NCBI GenBank assembly: GCA_017626015.1 | Contig: JAGAJO010000015.1 | Coordinates: 1-44,543 of the forward strand | Direction of reading: 5' to 3' | Length of the DNA: 44,543 nt | DNA from: Ruminococcus sp. | GTDB lineage: Bacteria > Bacillota > Clostridia > Oscillospirales > Ruminococcaceae | In this document: in pieces, positions 1-11,895 of the stretch | Numbering within the stretch: position 1 is the stretch's first letter | How the letters are laid out: each line of letters opens with the position of its first letter | Notes under the pieces: model-generated | Database searches by the model: none | What the model saw: the letters and a program-made list of their open reading frames with translations, nothing else | What the model was told of the DNA's origin: nothing | Made by a program: the position numbers and the translations under genes

Positions 1-52
1 CGCTTTCACGGTATTCTTTTACTCGTTCCGCCCATTTTTCTGATTCGCTCAT
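1..52 (-). CDS. Start of a small IS-encoded accessory protein (partial)
   Basis: Only the first 17 residues are visible (MSESEKWAERVKEYRES), behind an AAAGGCGG ribosome site. The short polar start with a W-x-x-R pattern resembles the first ORF (accessory protein) of IS66-type insertion sequences. The gene continues beyond base 1, so neither length nor family can be confirmed. Its promoter at 89-117 and its position just inside the insertion boundary support an IS gene rather than a host gene. Confidence 0.4.
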   Translation of the reverse strand, partial: MSESEKWAERVKEYRES

Positions 53-88
53 TTTTCTACCGCCTTTCGTGGTTTTGGGGATGAGTAT

Positions 89-117
89 ATTTTAGCATAT
101 GGGCGGGGTGTTTTCAA
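89..117 (-). promoter_or_regulatory. Promoter of the insertion-sequence gene
   Basis: On the minus strand, TTGAAA (117-112) and TAAAAT (94-89) are separated by 17 bp. The predicted start point lies about 30 bp before the start codon at 52. It sits within the inferred insertion sequence. Confidence 0.5.
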
Positions 118-140
118 GGTGGGGCGGGTTGGACGGATAC

Positions 141-1478
141 TTCTGTTCGGGCAGTATCATCGGCATTGCTTTCATAAAAGGCACGGATTTCGTCCTTCGA
201 CGCTTTCAGGTGAGGCGTTGTTCCAAGTATCTCGTTAATGGTTTCATCACCACCGAAAAACGGAAGGCTTTTATCCTCGTGGCTGCGGTCATAGACTAAG
301 CGAAGATTACTTCCGCTTTCACGATCTCCTGAACCCGGTTTCTCAGGTTGTTCATTTTCCGAACCCAAGACATCATATCCACCGCTTTCAGGCTCTCCGT
401 GATTCCTTCCTGCTCCGCCATCTGCTTCATCAGGGATTCCTCCATTGTCAAGGCTCTCTGCTCAGTTTCCGCCAAGTGACCGTTCAGAGTGCAGCTCGTC
501 AGAAGATTGTAGTAACGGACTTTGTGATGTTCCTTGAGAAATTTCCTCCTCATCTGAGCGTATCTGCCCAAGCTCACCTCCGCCTGCTCCGGCATTGTCA
601 GGTTCAGCAGGCTGTAATCGCCCTGCATTGTGTAACTGATTTCGTTCATCTTTAACACTCCTTTCGGTTTTATCGTCAGCCTTATTGTACCCGGCTTTTC
701 CGTTTCCGGCAATTATGCGATTTTGCCTGTCAAGCGCCGTAATGATGCGGGAGATTTCCGTAAGCCCCATTTCCGCAATATCGCTGGTCGCAAAGCCGAG
801 TGCGTTTAAGGTTTCCGGCGTTGTAAAGTTTACAGCGCCACGAAAATCGTCAGGCTCAAAGAAGCCTTCGGTATCAATGCCAAGCCGGGACATCAGCATA
901 TACGCTACGCTGTTCTGAACCGTTTCTCTGTAAATAACCGATATTTCTTCCTCGCTTAACCCATCTAAAAAGCTGTTTTCTACGGAATAAAGCAGATCGG
1001 ATAAGTAATCGGGAATGTTATCCTCTACTGCGTTTTTAGCGGCGCTCATAACAGCGGTTTCAAGGCTTGCCTTATTTTCAAGCTCCCCGAAGGTGCTTTC
1101 AAGGGTATCAATAATATCATCGCTGTATTCCGGCTTCATCTGCCAAATGGGAACAGGGCGGGAATAGCGGCTTTCGTGGGTATCGGAAATATCGAAGTAG
1201 TGCGTAAGACGCTGCCTGCTCCGGTCAGCGTCCTCAAATACCGCAATGCCCCTCGCTCCACGATTTACCCATCTTCCGAAGCTGCCATTCCATCTCTCGA
1301 TTTCAAGCACCGCCGTAGCGTCCGGTCTTTGTGCGTAAATAAGAAGCTGCTCGTCAAAGCGCAGCTTAAAGTTGCGGCAGGCGGAGCGCAAAAAGGCTTC
1401 CCAATTCTGCGGGTTACGCACAACGGTCTTGCAAGTGCGGTCATAGAGTTCGGTAATCAGGTCATATTTTCGTGCCAC
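141..1478 (-). pseudogene. Helicase/DNA-methylase giant protein of a conjugative element, N-terminal part, broken
   Basis: This is the N-terminal part of the very large (over 2,000 residues) helicase/N6-adenine methylase protein typical of Tn1549-like elements, starting VARKYDLITELYDRT. I recognised it by its N-terminal sequence. The GTG at 1478 is the start because AGGAGG lies 8 bp before it. The GTG at 1487 overlaps that site. About 338 codons are open, then TGA at 464-462 interrupts. The same frame resumes with sequence typical of the family (SHEDKSLPFFGGDETINE) and ends at 141, where an insertion sequence follows. All helicase and methylase domains lie beyond this point, so the gene is inactive. 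Loss of this protein would probably impair element DNA processing, which is inference. Confidence 0.8.
296..649 (-). CDS. tnpV: TnpV-family transposon protein, nested in the helicase pseudogene
   Basis: A 117-residue protein starts MNEISYTMQGDYSLLN and ends with the TnpV-type stretch MSWVRKMNNLRNRVQEIV. TnpV is a small protein of unknown role in Tn4451-like and other Clostridia mobile elements. The ATG at 649 has AAAGGAGTG 7 bp upstream, a proper ribosome site. The frame is intact and lies wholly inside the helicase pseudogene on the same strand in a different frame, so the two sequences are overprinted. The stop codon that kills the helicase frame falls on the third base of a Thr codon here (ACT) and would be silent in this protein. 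Confidence 0.75.
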   Translation of the reverse strand: MNEISYTMQGDYSLLNLTMPEQAEVSLGRYAQMRRKFLKEHHKVRYYNLLTSCTLNGHLAETEQRALTMEESLMKQMAEQEGITESLKAVDMMSWVRKMNNLRNRVQEIVKAEVIFA

Positions 1479-1490
1479 GGCTGACACCTC

Positions 1491-2429
1491 CTATCGTTCA
1501 TAATCTTTATTTTTCGGCTTTATGGGAGAGCCGTTCTCATCGTAATTTTTAGGCTTTGCGGCGGGCGTGTGCCAGCCGAACATAGAGCCGGCAAGCATTG
1601 CCGCCTCCTGTGCCTTACTGATACCGTGATTGGAATTATACAGATCAACCAAATTACGGTTTTCTTCGGACGTTTTCTGAACGCCCCTCGGCGTATAACC
1701 CTTCTGATAGCGGTCAATTTTTACAACCTCGCCTGTGGACGGAAGCGTTGAAAGACACTCACGGGGCAGAGGGATTTCCTTCGGCTGGTAAGTGCTGCCG
1801 CTTCGCTCCATTCTCTCTGCAAACTCGCAGATGTGGTATAGGTTGTTTCCAACTTCCAAATGGTATTCATCAATATATCTGCAAGTAAAATCACGCTTTT
1901 CGCCATCGGCATTGGTAACGGTAATCTGCTCACCGTCCGGCAGACGGAACAGCTCTTTGTAGTGGCTGTCAATAAAGCGAATATCCTGACTCGCCCGGTC
2001 AATGTGACGGTTCAGCCATTCTTTCTGATAGCAGAAACAATAAAAATTGTAATCGCCCTGCGTAGGATTGCAGCGGAGAAGATAGGAATACTTTTCTGTA
2101 TCCACCCGGAATCCGTACTCAGTCGTGTAAGAACCCTTAAAGCCGCTTTCAGGGTAATTTCCTGCAAAATCTTTCATACTGCGGCGGCTTTTTAACAGCC
2201 CGCATTCATTGCTGCGAAGCGTATTGATAACATTGTCCAATTCCGAGCTGAACTCCGGCGTTTTCAGCCTGCTGTTATGCTCGTCCCAAGTGGTATAAAA
2301 TTGTTCCCCTGAGCCAAAATCTCCACGCAGATGACCGATACTTCCGGTCTGACCTTGAATTTGTGTGCTTTGTGCGTAGGTGTATTTTCTTTCCTCAATG
2401 GTAAGCGGATTCATCACAAAATCTATCAA
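1491..2429 (-). CDS. Conserved conjugative-element protein, function unknown
   Basis: The product is 312 soluble residues with no signal peptide or membrane segment. I recognise it as a conserved companion of the helicase/methylase in Tn1549-like elements but know no function. The TTG at 2429 is the likely start: GGAG lies about 6 bp upstream and TTGA overlaps the TGA stop of the preceding gene, a classic coupling arrangement. The in-frame ATG at 2414 is too far from that site. The C-terminus is rich in Lys, Pro and Asn (KPKNYDENGSPIKPKNKD). It lies 12 bp before the helicase pseudogene start and is probably cotranscribed with it. Confidence 0.75.
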   Translation of the reverse strand: MIDFVMNPLTIEERKYTYAQSTQIQGQTGSIGHLRGDFGSGEQFYTTWDEHNSRLKTPEFSSELDNVINTLRSNECGLLKSRRSMKDFAGNYPESGFKGSYTTEYGFRVDTEKYSYLLRCNPTQGDYNFYCFCYQKEWLNRHIDRASQDIRFIDSHYKELFRLPDGEQITVTNADGEKRDFTCRYIDEYHLEVGNNLYHICEFAERMERSGSTYQPKEIPLPRECLSTLPSTGEVVKIDRYQKGYTPRGVQKTSEENRNLVDLYNSNHGISKAQEAAMLAGSMFGWHTPAAKPKNYDENGSPIKPKNKDYER

Positions 2430-3004
2430 CGCTCACTCCTTTCCTGCGAAGTTCTCTGTTTTGGAATGGGAAAGCCGTAAACGGCGGCGATTTCATCTCC
2501 AAGCCTGCGGGTAACTCTCGTAATATCGGCTCGTGTCGCTTTTCCCATATAAATCTTGTCTTTCAGGTTTTCAATCTGCGTATCCGATACCCCGTCCTTA
2601 AAGACACGGTACAGATAATGGTTTGTATCGTCATGATGGGCGGCGTCTGCTCGGAAATCTCCGTACTTATCCACATACCATTCCGTATAATCGGTGTCGG
2701 CATAAAGGCAGTCCTTGATATTGCCGGAGTCTATCATTTTGTAGCCCATAACCCTGCCATTCCATCTGCCAATATCGCCAATCACGATAATCGGCTGAGA
2801 GAGCTGGATATTCAGGTTCATTCTTTCATCGTCAAGATACTCCTCATTCGTTTCAACCATCCACTTATACAACTCGTTTTCATCATTCGGATCATCATCA
2901 AGCTCATTGATTTCAAGATAATCCTTATAGCTGTCACGCCAATCATCGGGATTGAGAGACAAATCACTCCATATGATGTGCCTGTCCGTCTGTGTGCTGT
3001 TCAT
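2426..3004 (-). CDS. Conserved acidic conjugative-element protein, function unknown
   Basis: The product is 192 residues, strongly acidic in its first third (DDDPNDENELYKW), with a short basic tail. No catalytic motif is evident. The ATG at 3004 has GGGAGG 8 bp upstream, while the GTG at 3013 lies almost on top of that site, so 3004 is chosen. The first 41 bases overlap the end of the preceding gene, and its TGA overlaps the TTG of the next, so three genes are translationally linked. Small acidic element proteins can be DNA mimics such as antirestriction factors, but nothing here proves that. Confidence 0.72.
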   Translation of the reverse strand: MNSTQTDRHIIWSDLSLNPDDWRDSYKDYLEINELDDDPNDENELYKWMVETNEEYLDDERMNLNIQLSQPIIVIGDIGRWNGRVMGYKMIDSGNIKDCLYADTDYTEWYVDKYGDFRADAAHHDDTNHYLYRVFKDGVSDTQIENLKDKIYMGKATRADITRVTRRLGDEIAAVYGFPIPKQRTSQERSER

Positions 3005-3230
3005 CTGCACCACCTCCCAAATAGGAGAACAGTCTGTTTTTTGATACCTGTTCCTGAAGCTCGGTAATGACCGTCATATCAGGAACGGTTATATCGGGAA
3101 TCTGTAAAATGCTCTGTAAGTTCAGCGCCTTCAAGTCCTTTTCTGTCTTGCAGCCGGACTCAAACAGCTTTGTCAGCACCTTGACCTTCTGCTGCAAGGT
3201 CAAGGCGGCTGTCAGTTTCTTATTTGCCAT
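2964..3230 (-). CDS. Small conserved conjugative-element protein
   Basis: The product is 88 residues starting MANKKLTAALTLQQKV. The first half looks helical and basic, and the C-terminus is His-rich (ADEQHTDGQAHHME). A strong GGAGG site precedes the ATG by about 8 bp. It overlaps the next gene by 41 bp and follows the 103-residue gene after 15 bp, so it sits in a compact element operon. I recognise it as a recurring element ORF without a known role. The Leu-spaced N-terminal half could be a dimerising helix. Confidence 0.68.
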   Translation of the reverse strand: MANKKLTAALTLQQKVKVLTKLFESGCKTEKDLKALNLQSILQIPDITVPDMTVITELQEQVSKNRLFSYLGGGADEQHTDGQAHHME

Positions 3231-3245
3231 CTCTTAAACCTCCTG

Positions 3246-3557
3246 TCAGTTTTTTGCGTAATCAGAATACACACGCTCCATTCTGTGCCTTGCCCTGCGG
3301 ACTTCAGGAGAACAGCCAAGCTCCGGGCATTTCGCCTGAATCTTCTGTCTTGTTCTGCGGATACTCTCAAAGCAGGGGATTCCATAGCCTTTGTAATTCG
3401 TCATTACATCGGCAAAGGTAAATGTGCCTGTGCCGTGCGTTTCAGTAATGCAGGACTCGCTCACAAGCAGATAGAGCCTCATATCATCATTCCGTGCGTC
3501 AGGGTGTTCCCGCAGGATTTCCGCCACACGGCTTTCAATGGTTTTCAGCGTTTTCAT
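3246..3557 (-). CDS. Small conserved conjugative-element protein, possibly DNA-binding
   Basis: The product is 103 residues starting MKTLKTIESRVAEILREHP, basic at the C-terminus (RRARHRMERVYSDYAKN). The helical N-terminal half followed by ESIRRTRQKIQAKCPEL resembles small DNA-binding proteins of phages and conjugative elements that pick a template by context, but no named family can be assigned. GGAGG lies 7 bp before the ATG. It is the first gene after the stem-loop region at 3614-3689 and leads the cluster of four small element genes. Confidence 0.68.
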   Translation of the reverse strand: MKTLKTIESRVAEILREHPDARNDDMRLYLLVSESCITETHGTGTFTFADVMTNYKGYGIPCFESIRRTRQKIQAKCPELGCSPEVRRARHRMERVYSDYAKN

Positions 3558-3613
3558 AGATACCTCCTAATAAAACAAGGGGCGGATCGTCGTCGCAAAC
3601 TACGCTCTGTTCG

Positions 3614-3689
3614 TTTCCGCCTTGCGGCGAAAAGCTCACACGCTCCGTTGCTCCTCCTCTCCCCACGAAGTCTAAAAGACTCCGTGGGG
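3614..3689. repeat. Pair of strong stem-loops between adhesin and small-gene cluster
   Basis: Two inverted repeats lie close together. At 3614-3633 TTTCCGCC pairs with GGCGAAAA with one mismatch. At 3661-3689 CCCCACG-A-AGTCT pairs with AGACT-C-CGTGGGG around a 3-base loop. Neither is followed by a T run on the minus strand, so a simple terminator is unlikely. In a conjugative element an intergenic stem-loop pair can be a transfer origin or a leader RNA. No nick site was recognised. Confidence 0.5.
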
Positions 3690-3715
3690 ACCCCAACAAT
3701 ATCCGCCCCAAGCCG

Positions 3716-3808
3716 TTATTTCTTCTTTCTGTTTCGTATCTGCAAAAAAATAAAGCCGCCGATGATAAAAGCGACCAGTGCGATAGCGATAATGGTTTTA
3801 AGCTCCAT
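3716..3808 (-). CDS. 30-residue single-span membrane peptide
   Basis: A 30-codon frame (starting MELKTIIAIALVAFIIGG, ending RNRKKK) begins at the ATG that overlaps the adhesin stop as TAATG, so it should be translated by ribosomes finishing the adhesin gene. It has an acidic third residue... a hydrophobic span of about 18 residues, and a strongly basic end that predicts a cytoplasmic C-terminus. It resembles no enzyme. The coupling and clean composition argue that it is a real gene that automatic callers would miss. It could help retain or process the adhesin at the membrane, which is speculation. Confidence 0.6.
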   Translation of the reverse strand: MELKTIIAIALVAFIIGGFIFLQIRNRKKK

Positions 3809-6800
3809 TATTTACTCTCTCCCTTCTTCTTTTTCTTGAAGCCTACGATACCGCAGGCGGCAATGCCGAGAGCCGACAGCCCCGCAAGAGCGAACCAAAG
3901 TCCGGTATGGCTGTTGTCCCCGGTTTTCGGCGTATAACGGAGTGTATTGTGCATTTCCACAATCGTGGTAGAGCCTGTCTGCACAGTTGCCTGCTTATCG
4001 GCAGGAAGCACATAGTTTGCAGAAGCCGCATTGCTGACCTCGGAAACGGTGTATTCGCCAATGCGAAGCCCATCAATGAAGATCTCGCCGTTCTCATCTG
4101 TTTCAAGCGTAACATCGTAGTTATTCGGTCCCGTGATGCGGAAGGCAAAGCCCTTCACATTTCCGTCCGATGAGGTCTTTACGATCTTAAGGCTGCCCTT
4201 CATTGCGTTATTGATAAAGCCGACGCCCACCTTGTTCTCCACCTGATAGATCTTTCCATCGGTGTCGATAAACACCTCGTAAACGCCTGTATCGAGGATA
4301 AATCCCTCCGGCGCAACGCTTTCTTTCACGAAGTAGCGACCATAGAGAAGGTCTTTCATTTCGTACTGCCCGATTTCCTTTTCGGTAAGTGTGCCGAGCA
4401 GTTCATCAGCTTCGTCCAATTTTCCGTTATCATTGCTGTCCTTATAGACCTCAAAGGTCGCTCCTGTCAGCTTGTTTTCGGGATATTCTGCGTCCACCTT
4501 TGTCAGAGCTATATTGCCACTGATAAACTCGTTGACAATTTCAATCTCCACAATCTGATTATCCTCGGAAATGGTTACGGGATAGACGGTTTCATCAAGC
4601 ACAAAGCCTGTCGGCTGCTTGATTTCACGCACATACCAAGTGCCGTAAGGGATTTTCTCAAAAGAAAAACTACCGTCAGTAGCCGTGCTGGTAGTCATAA
4701 GTGCGTTTTCCTCTGTAAATTCTCCGTCAGCGGTTTTGAAAAGTCCGATGACAGCTCCGGCAAGTTCTTCGCCATTCTCGTCAACCTTTTTGCCGGAAAC
4801 AGAACCGTAAAGCAGTTCGTTTTCAATAGCAGTTCCGTCATTTGCGGTAATCTCAACCTTTGCAGTTTCCTGTCCCGCATATTCAAAAACCACCGGATAT
4901 TTGGTATCGTTCAAGATATAATGCTCGTCGGTTGCAAGCTCCTCGACATAGTAGCTGCCAATAGGAAGGTCAGTTTTTACAGTTGCTTTGCCGTTTTCAT
5001 CAAGGGTAATAATTTCAATCAGACCGTCAGCCGGGATAGCAGTACCGCTTGCGCTTATGATTTCCTCTGCGGCAAACAAGCCGAAGCTGATATTCTGAAT
5101 CTCTCCATTGTTACCGATTCCGAAAAGCTCATTGTTTTCAAGTGTTTTTTCAAGGCCGATTTCAACCTTCTGTCTTTCATTGTAGAAGCTGGTTGCCGTT
5201 TCGGTTACGGAAACATTCTGTCCGGCGTACACAAGCTCTACCGTGTGGATTTCATCATTCAGCACCATTCCGTAAGGTGTGGTAATCTCCTGAACCTCGT
5301 ATTTTCCGAGATAAATTTCCTTGCTTTTGGCAAGACCGTCCGCACCCGTTGTAACGGTATCCACGACCTCGCCCTTTTTATATCGGGTAGTCCCGTCAGG
5401 CGTGATAATATCCTCTGCGGCTCTGATTTCATAAACAGCGCCGGGAAGTCCCTGCACCTCGTACTGCGGCTGATAAATGGTCGGCAGCTCGTTTCCGTTT
5501 TCGTCCGTACCGCCGATAGCAGACACGCCGAAGAACACCTCGCCGGATTTCTCCACCGTAACCGTGCCTTTCTGCGCCATATTTTCCTTATTCACCTTGA
5601 TAATTGTAACCCCGCTTTCCTCTGTGGAATTATCCTCTGCAACATCAAAGAAGATAGGCGTGCTGTCAAGGACATATCCGTAAGGTGCCTGCACCTCGAC
5701 AATGGAATAGCCTTTGCCGTAAGGCAGCTTTTCAGGAGTGACAAGCGAGCCTTCTGCGTCGGTATAGAAAGTGTCAATGGTCGTAGGAGTCGGATAAGTA
5801 AAGGTCATCGTTACAAGATTTCCTTCGGGATCGTAAATCTGAAAGCCTGCGCCCGCATAAGGGATTGTTTTCCCGGTTTCTGCGTCCACCTTGACTACCT
5901 TCACATAGCTTTCAAAGTTAGCGTTGTTGATAAGGTAGCGGTAGGTCTGAGCGTCCTGAGAAATGAAAACATCAAAATTCTTCATCAGCTCACGACCTTC
6001 CCAGCCTGCTGTCTGATGGACGGTGTAAATTCCGTAAGGCATATCCTTCGTCTGCCCGAAGCCGTTTTCATCACAAACGATTACATCACGCTCGTCAGGA
6101 TCGGCATTGCCATAACTGCCTGCGGATTTGAGATAGATTTCAAATGTTGCCCCTTCTTCGGGTGTTTCAATATGGGTTTCTCCGTCATCGGTATGCTTGA
6201 TAAGGGCAATATTGCCCTTGATAACATCCTCAACTACATCATTTGAAGTCAGGTTATGCTCTACGGTGTAAAGCTGCGGCTCTGCGCCGATGTGATGAAC
6301 CGTAGGATCAAGCAAATATCCCTCGCTCGGTTCAAGCTCCTTTATCGTCCAGTCATCGCCGCAGATATATTCTTTTGTGGTAAACTGACCGTTTTTATCC
6401 GTATAGTACACATCTACAAGCTGATCGCCCTTAAAGATACCGTACTTTGCGCCTGCCAAAGAAGCGTCCCCCTGCGGGAGTCCCTTTTCAGAGTCGCTCT
6501 TGGTTACAGTCACGGCAAACTTTTTTAGGATATTGATGAAGCTGCGGCTTATAACCTCTTTCCACTTGACAGGGGCAGTCTGATTTTCGGGAATGACATA
6601 GCGGATAGCGGTATCCACTTCTTCAAGGGTATAGGGATTTTTTCCGCTGATAAGAACATTCTTAAAAGTTGCTACACCGTTTTTATCGGTTACGGCATAT
6701 TCGTCCACCGCAATGCCGGAGAGCGATGTGCCGTAAAGGTGGAAGGTTACGCCCTCCACAAAGCTATCCTCTGAGGATTTGATAACCTGAACATCTCCAC

Positions 6801-8043
6801 GCTTTAAGGTGTTGGAAAAGGTTACAGAGGATGTGCCGCCGCTTACAATCGTTACACGCTGCGTTTTCTGCGGCTCGTATTTATCAATGCTTTCCTCCGT
6901 TACCGTATAAACACCGGGCATAAGCTCAATATCCACCGTACCGTCTGCTTTGGTGGTAACGGTCTTGTTCACGCCGTTTCCGCTGATAGTAAAGCGGATA
7001 CCGTCAACCTTTCCGTCCTCGGAGTGCTTGACAATATGACCGATTCCTGTTGTTTCAGTCTTGATGTTCATATAGAAATACACGGGATCTTCCGCACCTG
7101 ATACCATTGTCTGCTTGCCGGGATGTCCCCAAATGAGGAGATTTCCCGAAACAGTCGGAATATTTTTCTGTGCGGATACGCCGACAGCGTTTTCAATCAT
7201 CTTTTTGGAGGTAAAGGTGTACTCGTTGCCGCTTCGGGTAACGGTAATTCCTTTATCGGAGGTAAAATGAATATCCGCCAAGGGATTGTTGGTATCTGTC
7301 AAAGTCAGGCTGTAATTATCCTTTGCCTGATTGTATTTCAGGGTATAGGTCTTTGCACTGCCCGCCTGATTGGAAGCAAAGCTCGGTACTGTCGAATGGG
7401 TTTTCATCTGAGACAGAATCCAGTTATAGCACTTCTCGGCAGGTCTGCCCTGAATCATTCGGAAATAGTTATCGGCACGAATACCGTAGCTGTTTGCCTT
7501 TAAGGTCGTGGGGCTGGTTCTTAACTGCTGCTGGTACTCCCACAAAATCGTCTGTGTGGCGATGGAAAAATCGTCCTCATTTGTGCCGCTGATTGGCGCA
7601 GTTTTTCCGGGCTGCCAGCCGTAAAGGGAAGTCAGCATAATGCCGCACTGCACAGAATATGGGAGGTTCTGAAAATAGGAGCTGTTCTTTCCGCTTGTGC
7701 TTTCGTAACTGCCCCCGGCATTGTAATCCACGCCGGACTCAATACACATAAGCTGTCTTGAACCGCTTCCGTCCTTAATCATCAGCTTCGCTCTTGCTGA
7801 ACCGCCGGAATGTGAGTGAAGGCTTGTGTTACCATTGCTGTCATAGGCGATAAAGTCATAATCGGCAGAGCAATAATTTTCTCCGTCTGAGCCGAGATAA
7901 TGAGAGCCATAATAGGCTTCAACACTTTTGCCCTCCTCGGCGGTAAAGGCAAAGGCGGACATAGGCAGAGCCATCAGACACATCACGGCAGATAAAACCG
8001 CTGCTGTCACTCGCTTTCCCTTTGTTTTCAAAAAATGTTTCAT
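3808..8043 (-). CDS. Thioester-domain, multi-Cna_B cell-wall adhesin
   Basis: The product is 1,411 residues. Residues 1-33 are a signal peptide. About 40-330 form a thioester domain with Cys100 in QLMCIESG and Gln164 in ATQTILWEY, the pair expected to form the internal thioester. About 340-1,365 hold a long series of Cna_B repeats, each with a KxD/N-type first strand and an EVxxPxGY/F end. Near 1,371 lies TPKTG, a membrane span and KKKKKGESK, a sortase signal with T in place of the usual L. Such proteins project from the wall and can bind host or partner-cell surfaces covalently. On a conjugative element a mating-contact or colonisation role is plausible. The ATG at 8043 follows an AAAGGATGG site. 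Confidence 0.88.
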   Translation of the reverse strand: MKHFLKTKGKRVTAAVLSAVMCLMALPMSAFAFTAEEGKSVEAYYGSHYLGSDGENYCSADYDFIAYDSNGNTSLHSHSGGSARAKLMIKDGSGSRQLMCIESGVDYNAGGSYESTSGKNSSYFQNLPYSVQCGIMLTSLYGWQPGKTAPISGTNEDDFSIATQTILWEYQQQLRTSPTTLKANSYGIRADNYFRMIQGRPAEKCYNWILSQMKTHSTVPSFASNQAGSAKTYTLKYNQAKDNYSLTLTDTNNPLADIHFTSDKGITVTRSGNEYTFTSKKMIENAVGVSAQKNIPTVSGNLLIWGHPGKQTMVSGAEDPVYFYMNIKTETTGIGHIVKHSEDGKVDGIRFTISGNGVNKTVTTKADGTVDIELMPGVYTVTEESIDKYEPQKTQRVTIVSGGTSSVTFSNTLKRGDVQVIKSSEDSFVEGVTFHLYGTSLSGIAVDEYAVTDKNGVATFKNVLISGKNPYTLEEVDTAIRYVIPENQTAPVKWKEVISRSFINILKKFAVTVTKSDSEKGLPQGDASLAGAKYGIFKGDQLVDVYYTDKNGQFTTKEYICGDDWTIKELEPSEGYLLDPTVHHIGAEPQLYTVEHNLTSNDVVEDVIKGNIALIKHTDDGETHIETPEEGATFEIYLKSAGSYGNADPDERDVIVCDENGFGQTKDMPYGIYTVHQTAGWEGRELMKNFDVFISQDAQTYRYLINNANFESYVKVVKVDAETGKTIPYAGAGFQIYDPEGNLVTMTFTYPTPTTIDTFYTDAEGSLVTPEKLPYGKGYSIVEVQAPYGYVLDSTPIFFDVAEDNSTEESGVTIIKVNKENMAQKGTVTVEKSGEVFFGVSAIGGTDENGNELPTIYQPQYEVQGLPGAVYEIRAAEDIITPDGTTRYKKGEVVDTVTTGADGLAKSKEIYLGKYEVQEITTPYGMVLNDEIHTVELVYAGQNVSVTETATSFYNERQKVEIGLEKTLENNELFGIGNNGEIQNISFGLFAAEEIISASGTAIPADGLIEIITLDENGKATVKTDLPIGSYYVEELATDEHYILNDTKYPVVFEYAGQETAKVEITANDGTAIENELLYGSVSGKKVDENGEELAGAVIGLFKTADGEFTEENALMTTSTATDGSFSFEKIPYGTWYVREIKQPTGFVLDETVYPVTISEDNQIVEIEIVNEFISGNIALTKVDAEYPENKLTGATFEVYKDSNDNGKLDEADELLGTLTEKEIGQYEMKDLLYGRYFVKESVAPEGFILDTGVYEVFIDTDGKIYQVENKVGVGFINNAMKGSLKIVKTSSDGNVKGFAFRITGPNNYDVTLETDENGEIFIDGLRIGEYTVSEVSNAASANYVLPADKQATVQTGSTTIVEMHNTLRYTPKTGDNSHTGLWFALAGLSALGIAACGIVGFKKKKKGESK

Positions 8044-8072
8044 AGATATACCATCCTTTCATTTTTGGGTAT

Positions 8073-8105
8073 AAAAAAATCCCCCTGTCTGCTCTGACAG
8101 AGGGA
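8073..8105 (-). terminator. Terminator after the lipoprotein gene
   Basis: On the minus strand CCCTCTGTC pairs with GACAGGGGG around AGAGCA and is followed by seven T bases. It lies between the lipoprotein stop and the adhesin start, so the adhesin probably needs read-through or its own promoter. Confidence 0.75.
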
Positions 8106-8118
8106 AGCTGCTCACGAT

Positions 8119-8844
8119 TTAGTACAGGAAGTAAATCCGGTAGCTGCCGCTTCCAAGCGGTTCAACGTAAATCGTGAAGTATTGAATTGGATTGCCGCCG
8201 TATGCCGCTATAAGCTCCGGCATAGACTGCACATAATCTTTTAGCCTGCGTTCCAAGTTTTCGCCCTGAAAGTCTGCGGAAGCCGTAATCGGTGTTGACC
8301 AAGAAGCTGTGTCAGGCGTTAAACCGTCCGTATGGGTAAGCCCCATTCCTTCTCCGACTGAAATCAACTCCGCACGAATGGCGTCAATGTCAAATTCATA
8401 ATCGTAAATAGATTTCGGCTCAGGCGGTGTTTCCTGCGGCGGTTCACTTTCCGGCGCTTCCGGCTGTGTCGGTGGTGCTGTCGGCACTTCTGTTTCGAGT
8501 GCAGCCGTTTGTACTGCTTCGCTTTCCGTTTTCTTCGGCGGTTCGTCCTGCGGGGCAGAAGTGGGTTCGGCAATCGGTTCTGCTTCTTTGGGTTTGCTGC
8601 TTTCCATAACGCTTGCTTCTGTGGTGCTTTGATTTTCAGATGTTTCGGTACTCTGCATAGGTTCGGGCGTTGGCTCAACCTCACTTGTTTCTGCTGCCGG
8701 AAGCATATCCTTATCGGAAGTATCTTGATTACTTTCCGAAGAAGAAAACAGTTCGGGTATTTTCTCTGTCTGCGGGGTATTGTTGCAGCCCGATAGCGTT
8801 ATGAGTAACAGCATTGCCAAAACTACTGTGATTTTTGATTTCAT
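8119..8844 (-). CDS. Lipoprotein with Pro/Glu-rich stalk, conjugative element
   Basis: The product is 241 residues. Residues 1-20 form a lipoprotein signal ending LSGC, so Cys20 would be lipid-anchored. Residues about 25-150 are a low-complexity Pro/Glu/Thr/Ser stalk, and about 150-241 form a compact domain ending SYRIYFLY. Many Tn1549-like elements place such a lipoprotein next to the large adhesin. The globular tail has no motif I can name. AAAGGAGTG precedes the ATG at 8844. A terminator separates it from the adhesin. A role as a surface or mating-channel accessory is inferred from location only. Confidence 0.72.
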   Translation of the reverse strand: MKSKITVVLAMLLLITLSGCNNTPQTEKIPELFSSSESNQDTSDKDMLPAAETSEVEPTPEPMQSTETSENQSTTEASVMESSKPKEAEPIAEPTSAPQDEPPKKTESEAVQTAALETEVPTAPPTQPEAPESEPPQETPPEPKSIYDYEFDIDAIRAELISVGEGMGLTHTDGLTPDTASWSTPITASADFQGENLERRLKDYVQSMPELIAAYGGNPIQYFTIYVEPLGSGSYRIYFLY

Positions 8845-9074
8845 ACGACCTCACTCCTTTATCCTTTTGCCATTATTCTAACAGAAAACAGCATTTCAGA
8901 CAAAGGTGCAAAACATACCGCAGCCATTCCCGCCGCCTGAATATCCAAGCTGTGTGCTTTACCGCTTTGATGAGATAGGCTGAACTTAGGAGATAGATTT
9001 ATTTTTCTCGGATAGTCAGGCTGTTATCAGGGGGTTAGAGTGTGAGGAAGGGGGAAGCAAAAAACATACTCCGC

Positions 9075-10019
9075 CTACCTTGAATCACGCTCCGCACGGC
9101 TTCGCAAAAACTTGTTATAATGCTCCAATGCTTTGCAGACATATTCCTCCGTCTGATTTAACGGAATGTTTTTTGGAATCAGGCTTCGCACCTTATCCCC
9201 ACGAAGCACAATCTTTTCACGCTGGTTCGGTTTTTCCTCGCTCATAATTGCCTGCACCGCTTCGGTAGTGAGCTTACCCTCGTTAAAAAACTTTCTCATT
9301 CGGATTGTCTGATCGTGAGAGGGCGTACAGTCGTTCAGGTCGATTTCATCAACAATATCACGCTGACTGTCCTCATCAAGATAGGAAAGCTCAACCGCAG
9401 GGCGCATTTTTATCCTGCCCTCGTCTACCATTTCAAGCAGTTCGGGAACAAGGTTTGTAAGCCGGACATAACGGTGGATTTGATTTCGGCTATCGCCGCA
9501 CTCCAAAGCTATTTGTTCATCGGTTCGTAAATTCGTCCCCACTGGGGACAGATTTTCTTTACTCGGTCTGCCAGCCTGTCTTTTCATCGCTTCCAACCGC
9601 ATTTTATAAGCAAAAGCCTTCTCCGAGGGAAGTATCTGCGACCTTTGGTAATTGCTTTCTACCATTAAAATCGTAGCTTCGTCCCGGTTAAGCTCTACCA
9701 CCTCACAGCGAAGCGTATCAAATCCGGCAAGCTCGCAAGCCCTTTTTCGCCTGTGTCCTGAAATAAGCTCGTATCTGCCATCTTCCTTTTGCCTTACGGT
9801 TGCGGGGGTAATAACGCCACGCTCTTTGATACTCTCCACAAGCTGAAACATATCCTCATCTTCCCGCACCTGAAAAGGGTGGTTTGGAAAACCGTCAATT
9901 TCAGCAAGCGGAATATCCCTGATTTTTTGCAGCTTCGCCTCGTCACGTTCCTCCTGTGAGGAAAAAAGGTCATCAAGCGTGTTCGTGGGAAGCGTGAAGT
10001 CGCTCTTTCTGCCTGCCAT
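9075..10019 (-). CDS. parB: ParB/Spo0J-family partition protein
   Basis: The product is 314 residues. About 35-125 form the ParB/Sulfiredoxin-like nucleotide-binding domain, with ISGHRRKRACELAG in place of the common GERR box and NYQRSQILPSEKAFAYK after it. About 130-230 form the helix-turn-helix region (DEQIALECGDSRNQIHRYVRL). The protein should load at a parS-like site and clamp DNA using CTP, aiding maintenance of the excised element. The ATG at 10019 lies within the end of parA, with GGAGG 8 bp upstream, so the two are coupled. No substitution in its main motifs was noticed, unlike its ParA partner. Confidence 0.9.
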   Translation of the reverse strand: MAGRKSDFTLPTNTLDDLFSSQEERDEAKLQKIRDIPLAEIDGFPNHPFQVREDEDMFQLVESIKERGVITPATVRQKEDGRYELISGHRRKRACELAGFDTLRCEVVELNRDEATILMVESNYQRSQILPSEKAFAYKMRLEAMKRQAGRPSKENLSPVGTNLRTDEQIALECGDSRNQIHRYVRLTNLVPELLEMVDEGRIKMRPAVELSYLDEDSQRDIVDEIDLNDCTPSHDQTIRMRKFFNEGKLTTEAVQAIMSEEKPNQREKIVLRGDKVRSLIPKNIPLNQTEEYVCKALEHYNKFLRSRAERDSR

Positions 10020-10800
10020 CGGCTAACACCTCCTTCGTGAAATCGGCATAAGCCTTAGACACCGTACTGTTTGGCTTATACGCATAAATGCTCTTGCCCT
10101 TTGACGAAACCTCTGCGGCTTTCACAGCAATGGGAATCTTGGTCTTGTAAATCCTGATTCGGCTTCCAAAGTTATCCCTCAAAGCGTCTACCGTGCTTTT
10201 CGCAAGATTGGTTCTGCCGTCCACAAGGGTTAAGAGAAGCCCGTCAATCTGCAAGTTAGGGTTGGTATGCTTCTTTACCTTTGAAATCGTCGTGAGTAGC
10301 TGCGTCATTCCCTTTGCGGGAAGATACTGCGCCTGAATGGGAATTACCACGCTGTCCGCCGCTGTTAAAGCGTTGAGCGTAATCATACCGAGCGAAAGCA
10401 TACAGCCTATGAGAATATAATCGTAGCTGTCCTTTATTTGGCTCAGATAATTCTTCATTATGGACTCTCTGCTCATAGCGGTTACAAGGCTCATTTCCAT
10501 TGCGGACAATTCGAGATTTGCAGGAACAAGGTCAACCTTTTCTTCGTGGTGCAGCATACCGGAATAAGGATTTGCGCTTTCATCACGCATTGCCTCAGAC
10601 AGCTTGCTCGCAAGTGTGGTCTGCAAGCTGTCGGTATCCTGCCAACCGAGACAGGTAGTCAAATCTCCCTGCGGATCAGCGTCGATAAGGAGTACCTTTT
10701 TGCCCTGCATTGCAAGTCCTACGCCTAAATTTACCGCCGTAGTGGTTTTGCCTACGTCGCCTTTCTGATTACATATGGCAATCGTTTTACAGTTTGACAT
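9973..10800 (-). CDS. parA: ParA-family ATPase with altered nucleotide-binding motifs
   Basis: The product is 275 residues with the ParA order of motifs. The P-loop is KGDVGKTT (residues 13-20) where the family has KGGVGKTT. The second motif LLIDADPQGD is intact (about 37-46). The Walker B region reads YILIGCMLSLGM (128-139) where relatives have YILIDCMPSLGM, so the acidic residue at 132 is lost. ParA uses ATP hydrolysis to move ParB-DNA complexes. These changes predict poor ATP binding or hydrolysis. The reading frame is whole, with GGAGG before the ATG at 10800. Sequencing errors are an alternative, but three separate missense changes make that less likely. Confidence 0.85.
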   Translation of the reverse strand: MSNCKTIAICNQKGDVGKTTTAVNLGVGLAMQGKKVLLIDADPQGDLTTCLGWQDTDSLQTTLASKLSEAMRDESANPYSGMLHHEEKVDLVPANLELSAMEMSLVTAMSRESIMKNYLSQIKDSYDYILIGCMLSLGMITLNALTAADSVVIPIQAQYLPAKGMTQLLTTISKVKKHTNPNLQIDGLLLTLVDGRTNLAKSTVDALRDNFGSRIRIYKTKIPIAVKAAEVSSKGKSIYAYKPNSTVSKAYADFTKEVLADGRQKERLHASHEHA

Positions 10801-10836
10801 CTTCCGCTTTCCCTCCTTTCCAAAAATTCATAACCG

Positions 10837-10863
10837 ATTATATAAAAATCTGCTATGTATCAA
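10837..10863 (-). promoter_or_regulatory. Possible parA promoter
   Basis: On the minus strand TTGATA (10863-10858) and TATAAT (10842-10837) are 15 bp apart, shorter than the usual 17. The -10 box is perfect and sits 37 bp before the parA start. The -35 assignment is uncertain. Confidence 0.35.
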
Positions 10864-11170
10864 GCCGCAGTATTTGTTCTCAACGCCCCCCCCGCGGATA
10901 GCGTATTGCCTTTGTGGGAAGCGCTAAGGTTACGGTGTGCTGCACCGTATCATAGGGATTTCACCTCTGCCGGGTTCTCCGCCAGCCCCATAGGGAAGTA
11001 TCATTATCCTTCTGACTGTCATCGCCAAACTCGGTGGCAATCCGAGATTCAGGTCGGGGGTTCTCGCTTGCTCCCACAATGGAGAGGTTATGGCGTACCC
11101 ACTTCCGGGCTATCATCAGAAATAAAGTCCTTAGCGCCTGTATATTCAGTTGTCAAAATGCAGCGAAGGG
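10864..11170. other. Non-coding stretch upstream of parA with a hairpin
   Basis: I find no convincing gene between parA and 11,170. An open frame crosses it on the plus strand, but its composition and lack of a ribosome site argue against a protein. A clean hairpin at 10931-10949 (TACGGTG, 5-base loop, CACCGTA) and an 8-C run near 10886 are present. A leader RNA, an antisense control RNA or a replication/transfer origin would fit this place in a conjugative element, but none is recognisable. Confidence 0.35.
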
Positions 11171-11172
11171 TA

Positions 11173-11197
11173 GCACTCCGATTAGGAGTGGTTTTTT
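11173..11197 (+). terminator. Plus-strand terminator-like hairpin
   Basis: CACTCC pairs with GGAGTG around GATTA and is followed by GTTTTTT. It would end a plus-strand transcript crossing the non-coding region opposite parA, which hints that such an RNA exists. Confidence 0.55.
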
Positions 11198-11295
11198 GCC
11201 CCTTCACCTATTTGGAATTGGAAACCGAAATGACACCCTGTTATTTGAAAAAACTCGAAAAAATTTTTTTGAGTTATAGAAATCACCACAAAACG

Positions 11296-11333
11296 CAAAA
11301 AGCCGCCTGCTTCTCAAATGAGAAACAAGCGGC
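11296..11333 (-). terminator. Minus-strand terminator
   Basis: On the minus strand GCCGCTTGTTTCTC pairs imperfectly with GAGAAGCAGGCGGC around ATTT and is followed by a T run. It would stop transcription coming from the element edge before the parA region. Confidence 0.65.
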
Positions 11334-11437
11334 AAATTCTATTTATAAATAGGTAAGAGGACTATCGGGGAATAGCTAAGAAAGGGAACAAAAAAGACAG
11401 GGTAAAATGAGATAGGACACCAATAAGCACCTTTTTC

Positions 11438-11534
11438 GATTAGCAGAATTTTTAGCAGGATTTTTTGAGCGATTAGCAGGAATGCCGTTTTGATTAGCAA
11501 AATCGAGAAAATCTTGCTAATTTGATTAGCAGGA
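11438..11534. repeat. Five GATTAGCAGGA-like iterons plus an inverted copy
   Basis: Copies of (GA)TTAGCARRA begin near 11438, 11450, 11471, 11492 and 11524, spaced 12-32 bp. At 11513-11529 TGCTAAT-TTG-ATTAGCA forms a perfect inverted pair. The array is non-coding and lies between parA and the element edge. Such arrays bind initiators, ParB-like proteins or integrase arm domains. Which one applies cannot be told from sequence. Confidence 0.65.
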
Positions 11535-11626
11535 TTTCCGTAAGAGATAACGACTGAAAAAAGTGATTGACCGTTAGAGCATAAGCAGACGAATCAGTAT
11601 CCGGCTTGAATTGCTGGAGAAAATAA

Positions 11627-11670
11627 GAAAAGCCGAAAACCCTTGAAAATAAAGGCTTTCGGCGTTTTTT
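11627..11670. terminator. Bidirectional terminator after tRNA-Arg(CCT)
   Basis: GCCGAAAACCC pairs with GGCTTTCGGC around a short A-rich loop. A T run follows on the plus strand (GCGTTTTTT), and a looser one follows on the minus strand downstream of the tRNA. It would end the tRNA transcript. Confidence 0.6.
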
Positions 11671-11671
11671 C

Positions 11672-11747
11672 TGGCGTCCCGGAGAGGACTTGAACCTCCG
11701 ATCTACCGCTTAGGAGGCGGTTGCGTTATCCACTACGCTACCGGGAC
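11672..11747 (-). tRNA. tRNA-Arg (anticodon CCT), encoded CCA end
   Basis: The 76-base minus-strand sequence folds as a complete tRNA. The acceptor is GTCCCGG with CCGGGAC, the D arm is GCG...CGC, the anticodon stem ACCGC/GCGGT encloses loop CTCCTAA, and the T arm is GGAGG-TTCAAGT-CCTCT. CCA is encoded. The anticodon CCT reads AGG, an arginine codon. It lies 64 bp downstream of a truncated tRNA start that also has a CCT anticodon and a strong promoter. Its acceptor stem differs from that remnant, so it is a different tRNA gene and probably arrived with the element. Confidence 0.93.
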
Positions 11748-11810
11748 ATTTTTAAAATATTTAGTTCTCGTATCGTCCGCCTTTTACCAAAAGGCGAGAG
11801 GTCTTTCGTA

Positions 11811-11852
11811 ACCTTAGGAGGGAAGCACTCTATCCAGCTGAGTTACAAACGC
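11811..11852 (-). pseudogene. 5' half of a tRNA-Arg(CCT)-like gene, cut at the anticodon
   Basis: The minus strand begins GCGTTTG-TA, then a perfect D arm (ACTC-AGCTGGATA-GAGT), then CTTCC and the loop CTCCTAA with anticodon CCT. After GG the match ends: the anticodon stem cannot close, there is no T arm with a TTC loop, and no good partner for the acceptor GCGTTTG. The D region closely matches the intact tRNA-Arg(ACG) at 13184-13260. It reads as a tRNA-Arg whose 3' half was displaced. Confidence 0.7.
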
Positions 11853-11866
11853 ATTTAACAGTATTA

Positions 11867-11895
11867 ATTATATCACATCTTTTTTTAAATTGCAA
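11867..11895 (-). promoter_or_regulatory. Promoter of the truncated and replacement tRNA-Arg(CCT)
   Basis: On the minus strand TTGCAA (11895-11890) and TATAAT (11872-11867) are exactly 17 bp apart. The predicted start lies about 8 bp before the tRNA remnant. No other good promoter lies before the complete tRNA, so this one probably drives it too. Confidence 0.7.

Follow-up and report, generated by a model that had tools for sequence, protein, structure and literature searches.

What becomes of a tRNA gene that an integrating element has cut at the anticodon, when neither junction of the element rebuilds it? The question is raised by a 44,543-nt stretch of DNA from Ruminococcus sp. (contig JAGAJO010000015.1 of assembly GCA_017626015.1; the whole stretch is called the window below), in which the 5′ half of a tRNA-Arg(CCT) gene stands shortly before a complete tRNA-Arg(CCT). 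Our reading, which we hold to be very probably correct, is that an integrative element replaced the host tRNA-Arg(CCT) by a complete tRNA that is borne in its own attachment site (attP) and now lies behind the host promoter. An earlier note, made from the letters of this DNA alone, had claimed a promoter, a 5′ half, a 64-nt gap, a complete tRNA-Arg(CCT), and a terminator; all five proved to be in place.

A tRNA gene split at its anticodon

Read on the minus strand, the window locus consists, in order, of a promoter (TTGCAA-17-TATAAT, 11867..11895, found by promoter scan and presumably captured from the host), the truncated 5′ half of the host tRNA-Arg(CCT) (GCGTTTG...CTTCC, 11821..11852), the core of the left junction (attL; 11812..11820), an element spacer of 64 nt with an AT-rich stretch before the tRNA (11748..11811), the complete, element-borne replacement tRNA-Arg(CCT) (11672..11747), and an intrinsic terminator hairpin with a T-rich tail (11632..11663). 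The core, CTCCTAAGG, comprises the anticodon loop plus GG and is taken as the crossover segment. The replacement tRNA was called by ARAGORN and scores 68.8 bits in Rfam, with a predicted fold of −30.5 kcal/mol. It is the only tRNA-Arg(CCT) among the 37 of 38 tRNA matches in the genome that were checked (the remaining match scores 31.9 bits). The earlier note gave as the shared nine bases CCTCCTAAG, which is indeed common to the 5′ half and the complete tRNA; what the two junctions of the element share is CTCCTAAGG.

A consensus promoter scan of this short stretch found one site versus 1.0 expected, which is not significant alone, and a promoter resembling it precedes the intact copy of the tRNA gene in a congener (G014, locus L004). 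No promoter-like site was found by the consensus scan within the spacer (11748..11811), and the half plus spacer show no unusual RNA fold (z −0.2).

The missing half and how the element may work

A search of the window genome for the anticodon loop followed by a T loop returned two places, the complete tRNA and C5:129334-129308 (−), which lies on another contig. At the latter, unrelated sequence abuts the same 9-bp CTCCTAAGG, and the remainder of a tRNA follows. The earlier note had predicted a displaced 3′ half ending in a CAAACGC-like strand and CCA; the half exists, ends in CAAGCGC, and has no CCA after it. It pairs throughout with the window 5′ half (7/7 in the acceptor stem and 5/5 in the anticodon stem, 12/12 in all), a result reached by none of 30 5′ halves from other genomes, and over 34 positions it has 15 differences from the 3′ part of the window's complete tRNA. 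No tRNA is rebuilt at either junction: the first core at attL fails the pairing test (locus L267), and the right junction (attR) has no 5′ half before its core.

About 350 bp from the displaced half is a tyrosine integrase (Phage_integrase, 6.9e-16; SAM_3; Arm-DNA-bind_4, below its cut-off), which presumably acts on the tRNA-Arg(CCT) site. The same neighborhood holds a helix-turn-helix (HTH) protein, a PemK-like toxin, and a sigma-like protein (below its family cut-off). With a displaced half that pairs at 12/12 and an integrase adjoining it, the proposal that an element splits tRNA-Arg(CCT) at the anticodon and brings a complete tRNA is upheld. The host flank is to the right of attL in the window and on the low side of the C5 junction, and the element therefore extends in the opposite direction at each junction. 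It would span window 11811 down to 1, where its left part (1..11811, as placed by attL) runs off the contig end, and C5:129334 upward, the assembly leaving the middle unjoined.

The events can be pictured as follows. A tyrosine integrase would recombine attP with the anticodon loop of the host tRNA-Arg(CCT) gene over the 9-bp core. The cut leaves the host gene as a promoter-bearing 5′ half (attL, in the window) and a promoterless 3′ half (attR, in C5). In the free circle, the spare tRNA would have no near promoter; integration would set it behind the host tRNA promoter, one event both killing the host tRNA and activating the replacement; the latter would be freed from the fused transcript by RNase P together with ordinary 3′ processing. 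In the replacement tRNA, the anticodon-loop core is itself intact. The next element could therefore insert there, and stacks of 5′ halves, as seen elsewhere, would result.

Recurrence in other genomes

A scan of a species collection, in which two cores at a spacing of 76-105 bp and a T loop behind the second core were required, gave at least 119 loci; counts given below for loci refer to the 119 listed. The pattern favors a complete second tRNA, yet permits a complete first one, and CTCCTAAG in the related loci is a requirement of the pattern. Among 80 titles of the matches listed, most are Clostridia or families thereof (including isolates of Dorea, Hungatella, Blautia, and Anaerotruncus), two are labeled Erysipelotrichaceae, one Flavobacteriaceae, and some merely bacterium or Bacillota. 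In 394 genomes of the window's order, core-to-core spacings of 106-136 (gaps 98-128) occur in 23 genomes, spacings of 76-105 (gaps 68-97) in 23 others, and spacings of 46-75 (gaps 38-67) in none. A reversed control pattern matched one genome (G112) in the search with gaps of 98-128, and no match was seen for the other two gap ranges. We therefore do not attribute the two-core pattern to chance. One of the 46 matched genomes, G169 (L239), has two complete tRNAs, leaving the architecture in 45 of 394.

By the pairing test, which called 15 of 15 intact tRNAs complete, the first tRNA is complete at none of the 119 loci and the second at 113; three of the remaining six are cut by the locus end. If a virus contig, L189, is added (120 rows), one exact core precedes the last core in 103, two do so in 11, and three in six. 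The 5′ half scores poorly in seven of these rows: halves are recognizable by eye in L095 and L140, L162 has a damaged-looking half, L189 is a free form (see below), and three (L079, L083, and L170) have none. A relative of the integrase lies downstream in 48 of the 120 rows; where 2.2 kb or more could be examined there (55 rows), the count is 30. The relative is convergent with the tRNA in all 48 and is 188-590 bp from the first core in 47 of them, 2532 bp in one.

Searching instead from the integrase, we found relatives in 20 of 150 genomes, the window genome included. These adjoin strings of truncated 5′ halves with one complete tRNA, or displaced 3′ halves, or neither (within the stored flank). 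In G044, a single 3.0-Mb contig, 6.2 kb separate the complete tRNA from a displaced half, a stretch that includes the integrase and an IS21-type insertion, and pairing of this displaced half with the first 5′ half is perfect (the complete tRNA was called by ARAGORN; it lacks the TTCRA motif and so is not counted by the pairing classifier). The relatives show that the complete tRNA belongs to the element, inside attP and one spacer behind the core. The window tRNA itself is 91% identical over 74 nt to an array tRNA in another family (G053); same-genus matches covering that stretch have 78%-81% identity.

Matching ends and free forms

Both ends were compared in 23 hand-chosen genomes (13 of the listed loci, nine others of the order, and the window genome). 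They yielded 24 displaced 3′ halves in 21 genomes, and 14 of these halves have a perfect partner (7/7 plus 5/5) among the 5′ halves of their own genome. For eight of these 14, no 5′ half from another genome does as well; for the other six, one to five of about 30 do. Thirteen of the 14 are distinct from the 3′ part of the complete tRNA in the array, with 4 to 27 differences over 34 positions, and in six of these 13 (G044, G475, G425, G486, G412, and G477) both ends are on one contig, 6.2 to 73 kb apart.

One such element appears in both states, free and integrated. Virus contig L189 is 99.67% identical to genome locus L167 over 1813 bp from the first core base. In L189, the core, spacer, and complete tRNA are not preceded by any tRNA half; in L167, the same DNA stands behind a 5′ half. 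A second virus contig, L325, is likewise of the free type, and an integrase-like reading frame in it terminates at the core. These are two of four viral matches; L324 is of the integrated type, and L323, without a tRNA by ARAGORN, was dropped. Other candidates for free circles were rejected: of the “Bacteriophage sp.” records H1-H4, two hold places resembling displaced halves and two have no core, and a 75.8-kb circular Subdoligranulum record shows an integrated-type junction.

The right ends of six elements (L290, L282, L294, L296, L302, and L313), each from a different genome, are identical in the 30 nt that precede CTCCTAAG. L296 is from C. asparagiforme, and L290 and L282 are from genomes of the window's order; closely related elements therefore occur in different bacteria. 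At L304 and L305 (G478:C9), as at L279 and L300 (G484:C86), a displaced half and a complete tRNA have a common 3′ part. Ordinary tRNA-restoring islands seem to use the same target site too.

Probable promoter capture

Promoters were scored with a simple hexamer test, in which a score of at least 11 counts as strong. A strong promoter lies within the 90 nt before the outermost traceable half at 60 of 117 loci, versus 2.3 by shuffling. Equal-length stretches before the first exact core's tRNA reach this score at 32 of 119 loci, and no spacer does (0/119). To judge from these scores, the free element seems to have no near promoter for its tRNA. Because promoters lie ahead of the outermost half and not within the spacer, the replacement tRNA probably depends on the captured host promoter.

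Helical phasing of the spacer

Core-to-core distances cluster at about 82, 93, 103.5, 113.5, and 124, given search ranges that ran without interruption from 46 to 136 in the order genomes and covered 76-105 alone in the species scan (L239, being a pair of complete tRNAs, was dropped). In a set of 64 spacers with less than 70% identity, a period of 10.6 bp fits best, with an R of 0.78 (the maximum of 2000 uniform trials is 0.46). This is about one DNA helical turn, and the spacer may thus be an attP arm on which the integrase binds arm-type sites in register. Of 165 spacers, 77 have an AT-rich motif (a hand-made pattern), in most cases 10-13 or 18-23 nt upstream of the tRNA. One spacer class (L044:1132, L053:1135) starts with a T-arm-like GTTCGAATCC, possibly the relic of an older attP that rebuilt the tRNA.

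Contrary evidence and alternative explanations

A number of observations weigh against replacement by an attP-borne tRNA, at the window or in general. The attL and attR of the window genome are on separate contigs, and the element has not been read end to end. Its integrase sits at attR, pointing at the displaced half (as also in G048, G064, and G095), in contrast to the 48 of 48 listed rows in which the integrase is beside the replacement tRNA. In the paired-end sample, 10 of the 24 displaced halves are without perfect pairing in their own genome (7 to 11 of 12, or no 5′ half), and no displaced half came to light in two of the 23 genomes. The displaced half nearly equals the array's complete tRNA in G476 (1/34 differences; one of the 14 perfect pairs) and equals it in G484 (0/34; outside the 14), a pattern that another element may have produced by restoring the tRNA in the ordinary way. 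A search of the L167 genome for the right end of L189 gave nothing beyond one weak 59-bp match. L079, L083, and L170, all genome contigs, have a core, spacer, and tRNA with no recognizable 5′ half before the core, and could be free forms, deletions, or loci with decayed halves. If the promoter cut-off is lowered to 9, 28 of 119 spacers pass, versus 59 of 119 equal-length upstream stretches. Finally, the window genome may be able to dispense with a CCT tRNA: its other Arg tRNAs seen are ACG, TCT, and CCG, and the CCT tRNA may not be essential because tRNA-Arg(TCT) is present and may read AGG.

The ancestral site has to be considered here as well. Intact CCT tRNAs occur at the examined locus in 13 congeners, and the earlier note's expectation of an intact tRNA in a relative was realized in part: that of G014 (L004) has the same acceptor strand as the window 5′ half and a like promoter, and no element-free relative with the same flanking genes (a syntenic empty site) was found. 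A search via the NUDIX neighbor gave matches in 15 of 29 genomes, of which only G016 is close (71%), with no tRNA within the 3.5 kb examined there; a search for synteny using the host neighbors of G014's intact tRNA gave one 45% match. Because no such relative was found, we infer the ancestral site from the two halves and do not read it from a syntenic locus. An element-free relative with the same truncated half beside the same complete tRNA, which would speak against an insertion, was not seen among 61 genomes searched.

If the element were an ordinary tRNA island, attP would restore the split gene with a matching 3′ part and the extra tRNA would be incidental. Such restoration is the rule for tRNA-targeting elements (Islander; PMC4383910, in the parts of that account compared), and it probably holds at G484 and G476, where displaced half and complete tRNA resemble each other, and at G478 C9, where the same 30 bases occur at two places 11.7 kb apart. 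The spacers that start with a T-arm-like stretch could be read in the same way. Still, we give this explanation very little credence for the window, given that the sequence after the attL core does not pair with the 5′ half, that 0 of 119 listed first cores pass the test versus 15 of 15 intact genes, and that the displaced half in the window genome departs from the complete tRNA as described above. Stacks might also arise through local duplication and decay of tRNA genes with no integration at all, and L039, with like halves and identical spacers in tandem, has that appearance. Yet displaced 3′ halves elsewhere pair with 5′ halves, integrases adjoin the arrays, and the unit of core, spacer, and tRNA occurs free in L189, all of which makes duplication the least credible of the explanations considered. 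The pairing counts, the displaced halves, and the free-state contig led us to reject both for the window.

Two further alternatives concern how the replacement works. The tRNA might be driven in both states by the element's own promoter, as in the actinophage Fionnbharth, the host promoter being unneeded. The 136-bp fragment upstream of the Fionnbharth tRNA is a strong promoter (PMC10865867, in the portions of the paper compared), weak or non-sigma-A promoters would evade our scan, four of the 119 spacers score at least 10, and in L189 a TATAAT, paired with a poor −35, is found 28 nt ahead of the core. Against this, spacer scores match those of shuffled sequence (mean 8.12 versus 8.01 in 119 rows), and a score of at least 11 is reached by only one (G485) of 25 element right ends, which precede the core in the free circle (the sample comprised 23 of the 24 displaced halves, L309 being left out, and two free forms). 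An own promoter is thus improbable in our view. The phasing, for its part, might reflect descent from a few spacer lineages of fixed length and no constraint, as spacers do form recognizable families, with little variation in length inside each. However, a period of 10.7 persists among 32 spacers less than 60% identical (R 0.73, trials up to 0.57) and 14 less than 55% identical (R 0.90, trials up to 0.81), and there are five length classes about one helical turn apart. Common descent is a possible explanation, and one that we consider rather unlikely.

Carriers and other genes

The elements differ in what they carry. The 31.6-kb element of C. asparagiforme (G475) encodes a type IV secretion system coupling protein, a TraG-type ATPase, a topoisomerase, and CD1107-like and DUF6017 proteins, as would an integrative conjugative element. 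L189 encodes an endolysin and ParA. A D5-like protein and a kinase are found between the array and the displaced half of G448, a genome in which the two ends fail to pair. The left part of the window element encodes, all on the minus strand, a ParA-type ATPase (9973..10800; Pfam AAA_31, 1.6e-55), a ParB-type protein (9075..10019; ParB_N, 8e-15), and a SpaA/thioester-domain surface protein (3808..8043; SpaA, 5.4e-110; TED, 5.7e-08). No phage structural gene was found among the proteins of the window element that were scanned, its middle being unassembled.

Some additional features may be recorded. A pemK RNA motif (Rfam RF02913, 69.8 bits) at 10950-11007 (−) is upstream of parA/parB and not of a pemK gene, the PemK-like toxin being near the other element end, in C5. 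Short GATTAGCA-type repeats at 11430-11545, between the tRNA terminator and the parA region, are perhaps a partition site. The C5 part of the element includes a papain-fold glutamine-deamidase-like open reading frame (L024:10209-11360, −) and a second tyrosine recombinase (L024:17735-18862, −) near Hsp70, GrpE, and an FtsK-like protein. In Monoglobus (NZ_OY725736.1, L330), a module of integrase, HTH, PemK, and sigma genes ends at 11810 in the 3′ part of a CCT tRNA that resembles a displaced half, and a predicted tet(40) gene (1-841) lies about 11 kb from that core.

Relation to known systems

The one precedent that the earlier note offered for complete replacement of a tRNA is that of the tycheposons. 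Such replacement is not confined to them: the actinophages Fionnbharth, Lebron, and Gaia undergo tRNA-dependent lysogeny, with cores of 8-17 bp, a host tRNA that is not rebuilt, and a cognate tRNA carried by the phage (Guerrero-Bustamante and Hatfull 2024; PMC10865867). As described in the portions of that paper compared, the tRNA of Fionnbharth, which overlaps gene 37, is served by a strong promoter of its own, and the Gaia tRNA is downstream of int. This is the closest precedent, and the same in outline, given a tyrosine integrase, a short core in a host tRNA gene, no junction that rebuilds the tRNA, and an element tRNA of the same isotype. Unlike in Fionnbharth, no promoter of the tRNA's own was detected here by consensus scan, and a presumably captured host promoter precedes it. 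Also unlike the actinophages as described there, the tRNA is inside attP and helically phased, relic halves form arrays, and the carriers include a conjugative element. The attP-embedded tRNA, the probable promoter capture, the phasing, the stacks, and the non-phage carriers are what is new here.

Other systems are similar in part, as far as the passages compared go. In Sinorhizobium meliloti, a tRNA inactivated by integration is replaced by a prophage tRNA resembling that of a distant species; an attP-embedded tRNA, promoter capture, and stacks are absent from those passages (PMC11476347). Prophage Lj965 of Lactobacillus johnsonii is said not to rebuild the tRNA and to carry a cognate one (via PMC10865867). 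Islander-type islands (PMC4383910) likewise have a tyrosine integrase, anticodon-centered sites, and a tRNA fragment at the far end, but they rebuild the gene from a shared fragment, whereas the window and the 119 listed loci rebuild nothing. The tandem ssrA islands of Dehalococcoides (PMC3146451) are also serial at one RNA gene, with a tRNA-like locus in the integration module; they differ in using a serine recombinase and in keeping the target 3′ end as a 20-bp repeat. Tycheposons (PMC10872708) are tyrosine recombinase elements at tRNA genes too, and are set apart, by description alone, as marine cargo elements. In a full-text literature search that covered mostly titles and abstract openings and few subscription papers, we met no description of an attP-embedded, promoter-capturing tRNA.

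Implications

The prevalence of tRNA-dependent lysogeny beyond actinophages was, in the passages compared, left for investigation (PMC10865867). The present results extend the question of tRNA-dependent integration outside that group, to 45 of 394 genomes of one order, at least 119 loci, and named gut isolates. They suggest a route by which a host housekeeping RNA gene can be replaced through promoter capture. They also explain strings of tRNA fragments that annotators may misread and that leave a record of element turnover, and the 10.6-bp phasing offers a direct handle on integrase-attP architecture.

We are inclined, with a good deal less confidence than for the window itself, toward a broader view: that a mostly clostridial family of attP sites carries a promoterless, phased tRNA that is off when the element is free and is switched on solely by capture of the target's promoter, the whole being a portable module that leaves stacked dead halves behind. 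If this is true, integration would be self-complementing and excision self-reversing, and the module would be shared by phages, conjugative elements, and small elements. Each new tRNA would again be a target, and the stacks of dead 5′ halves would record successive takeovers of one housekeeping gene.
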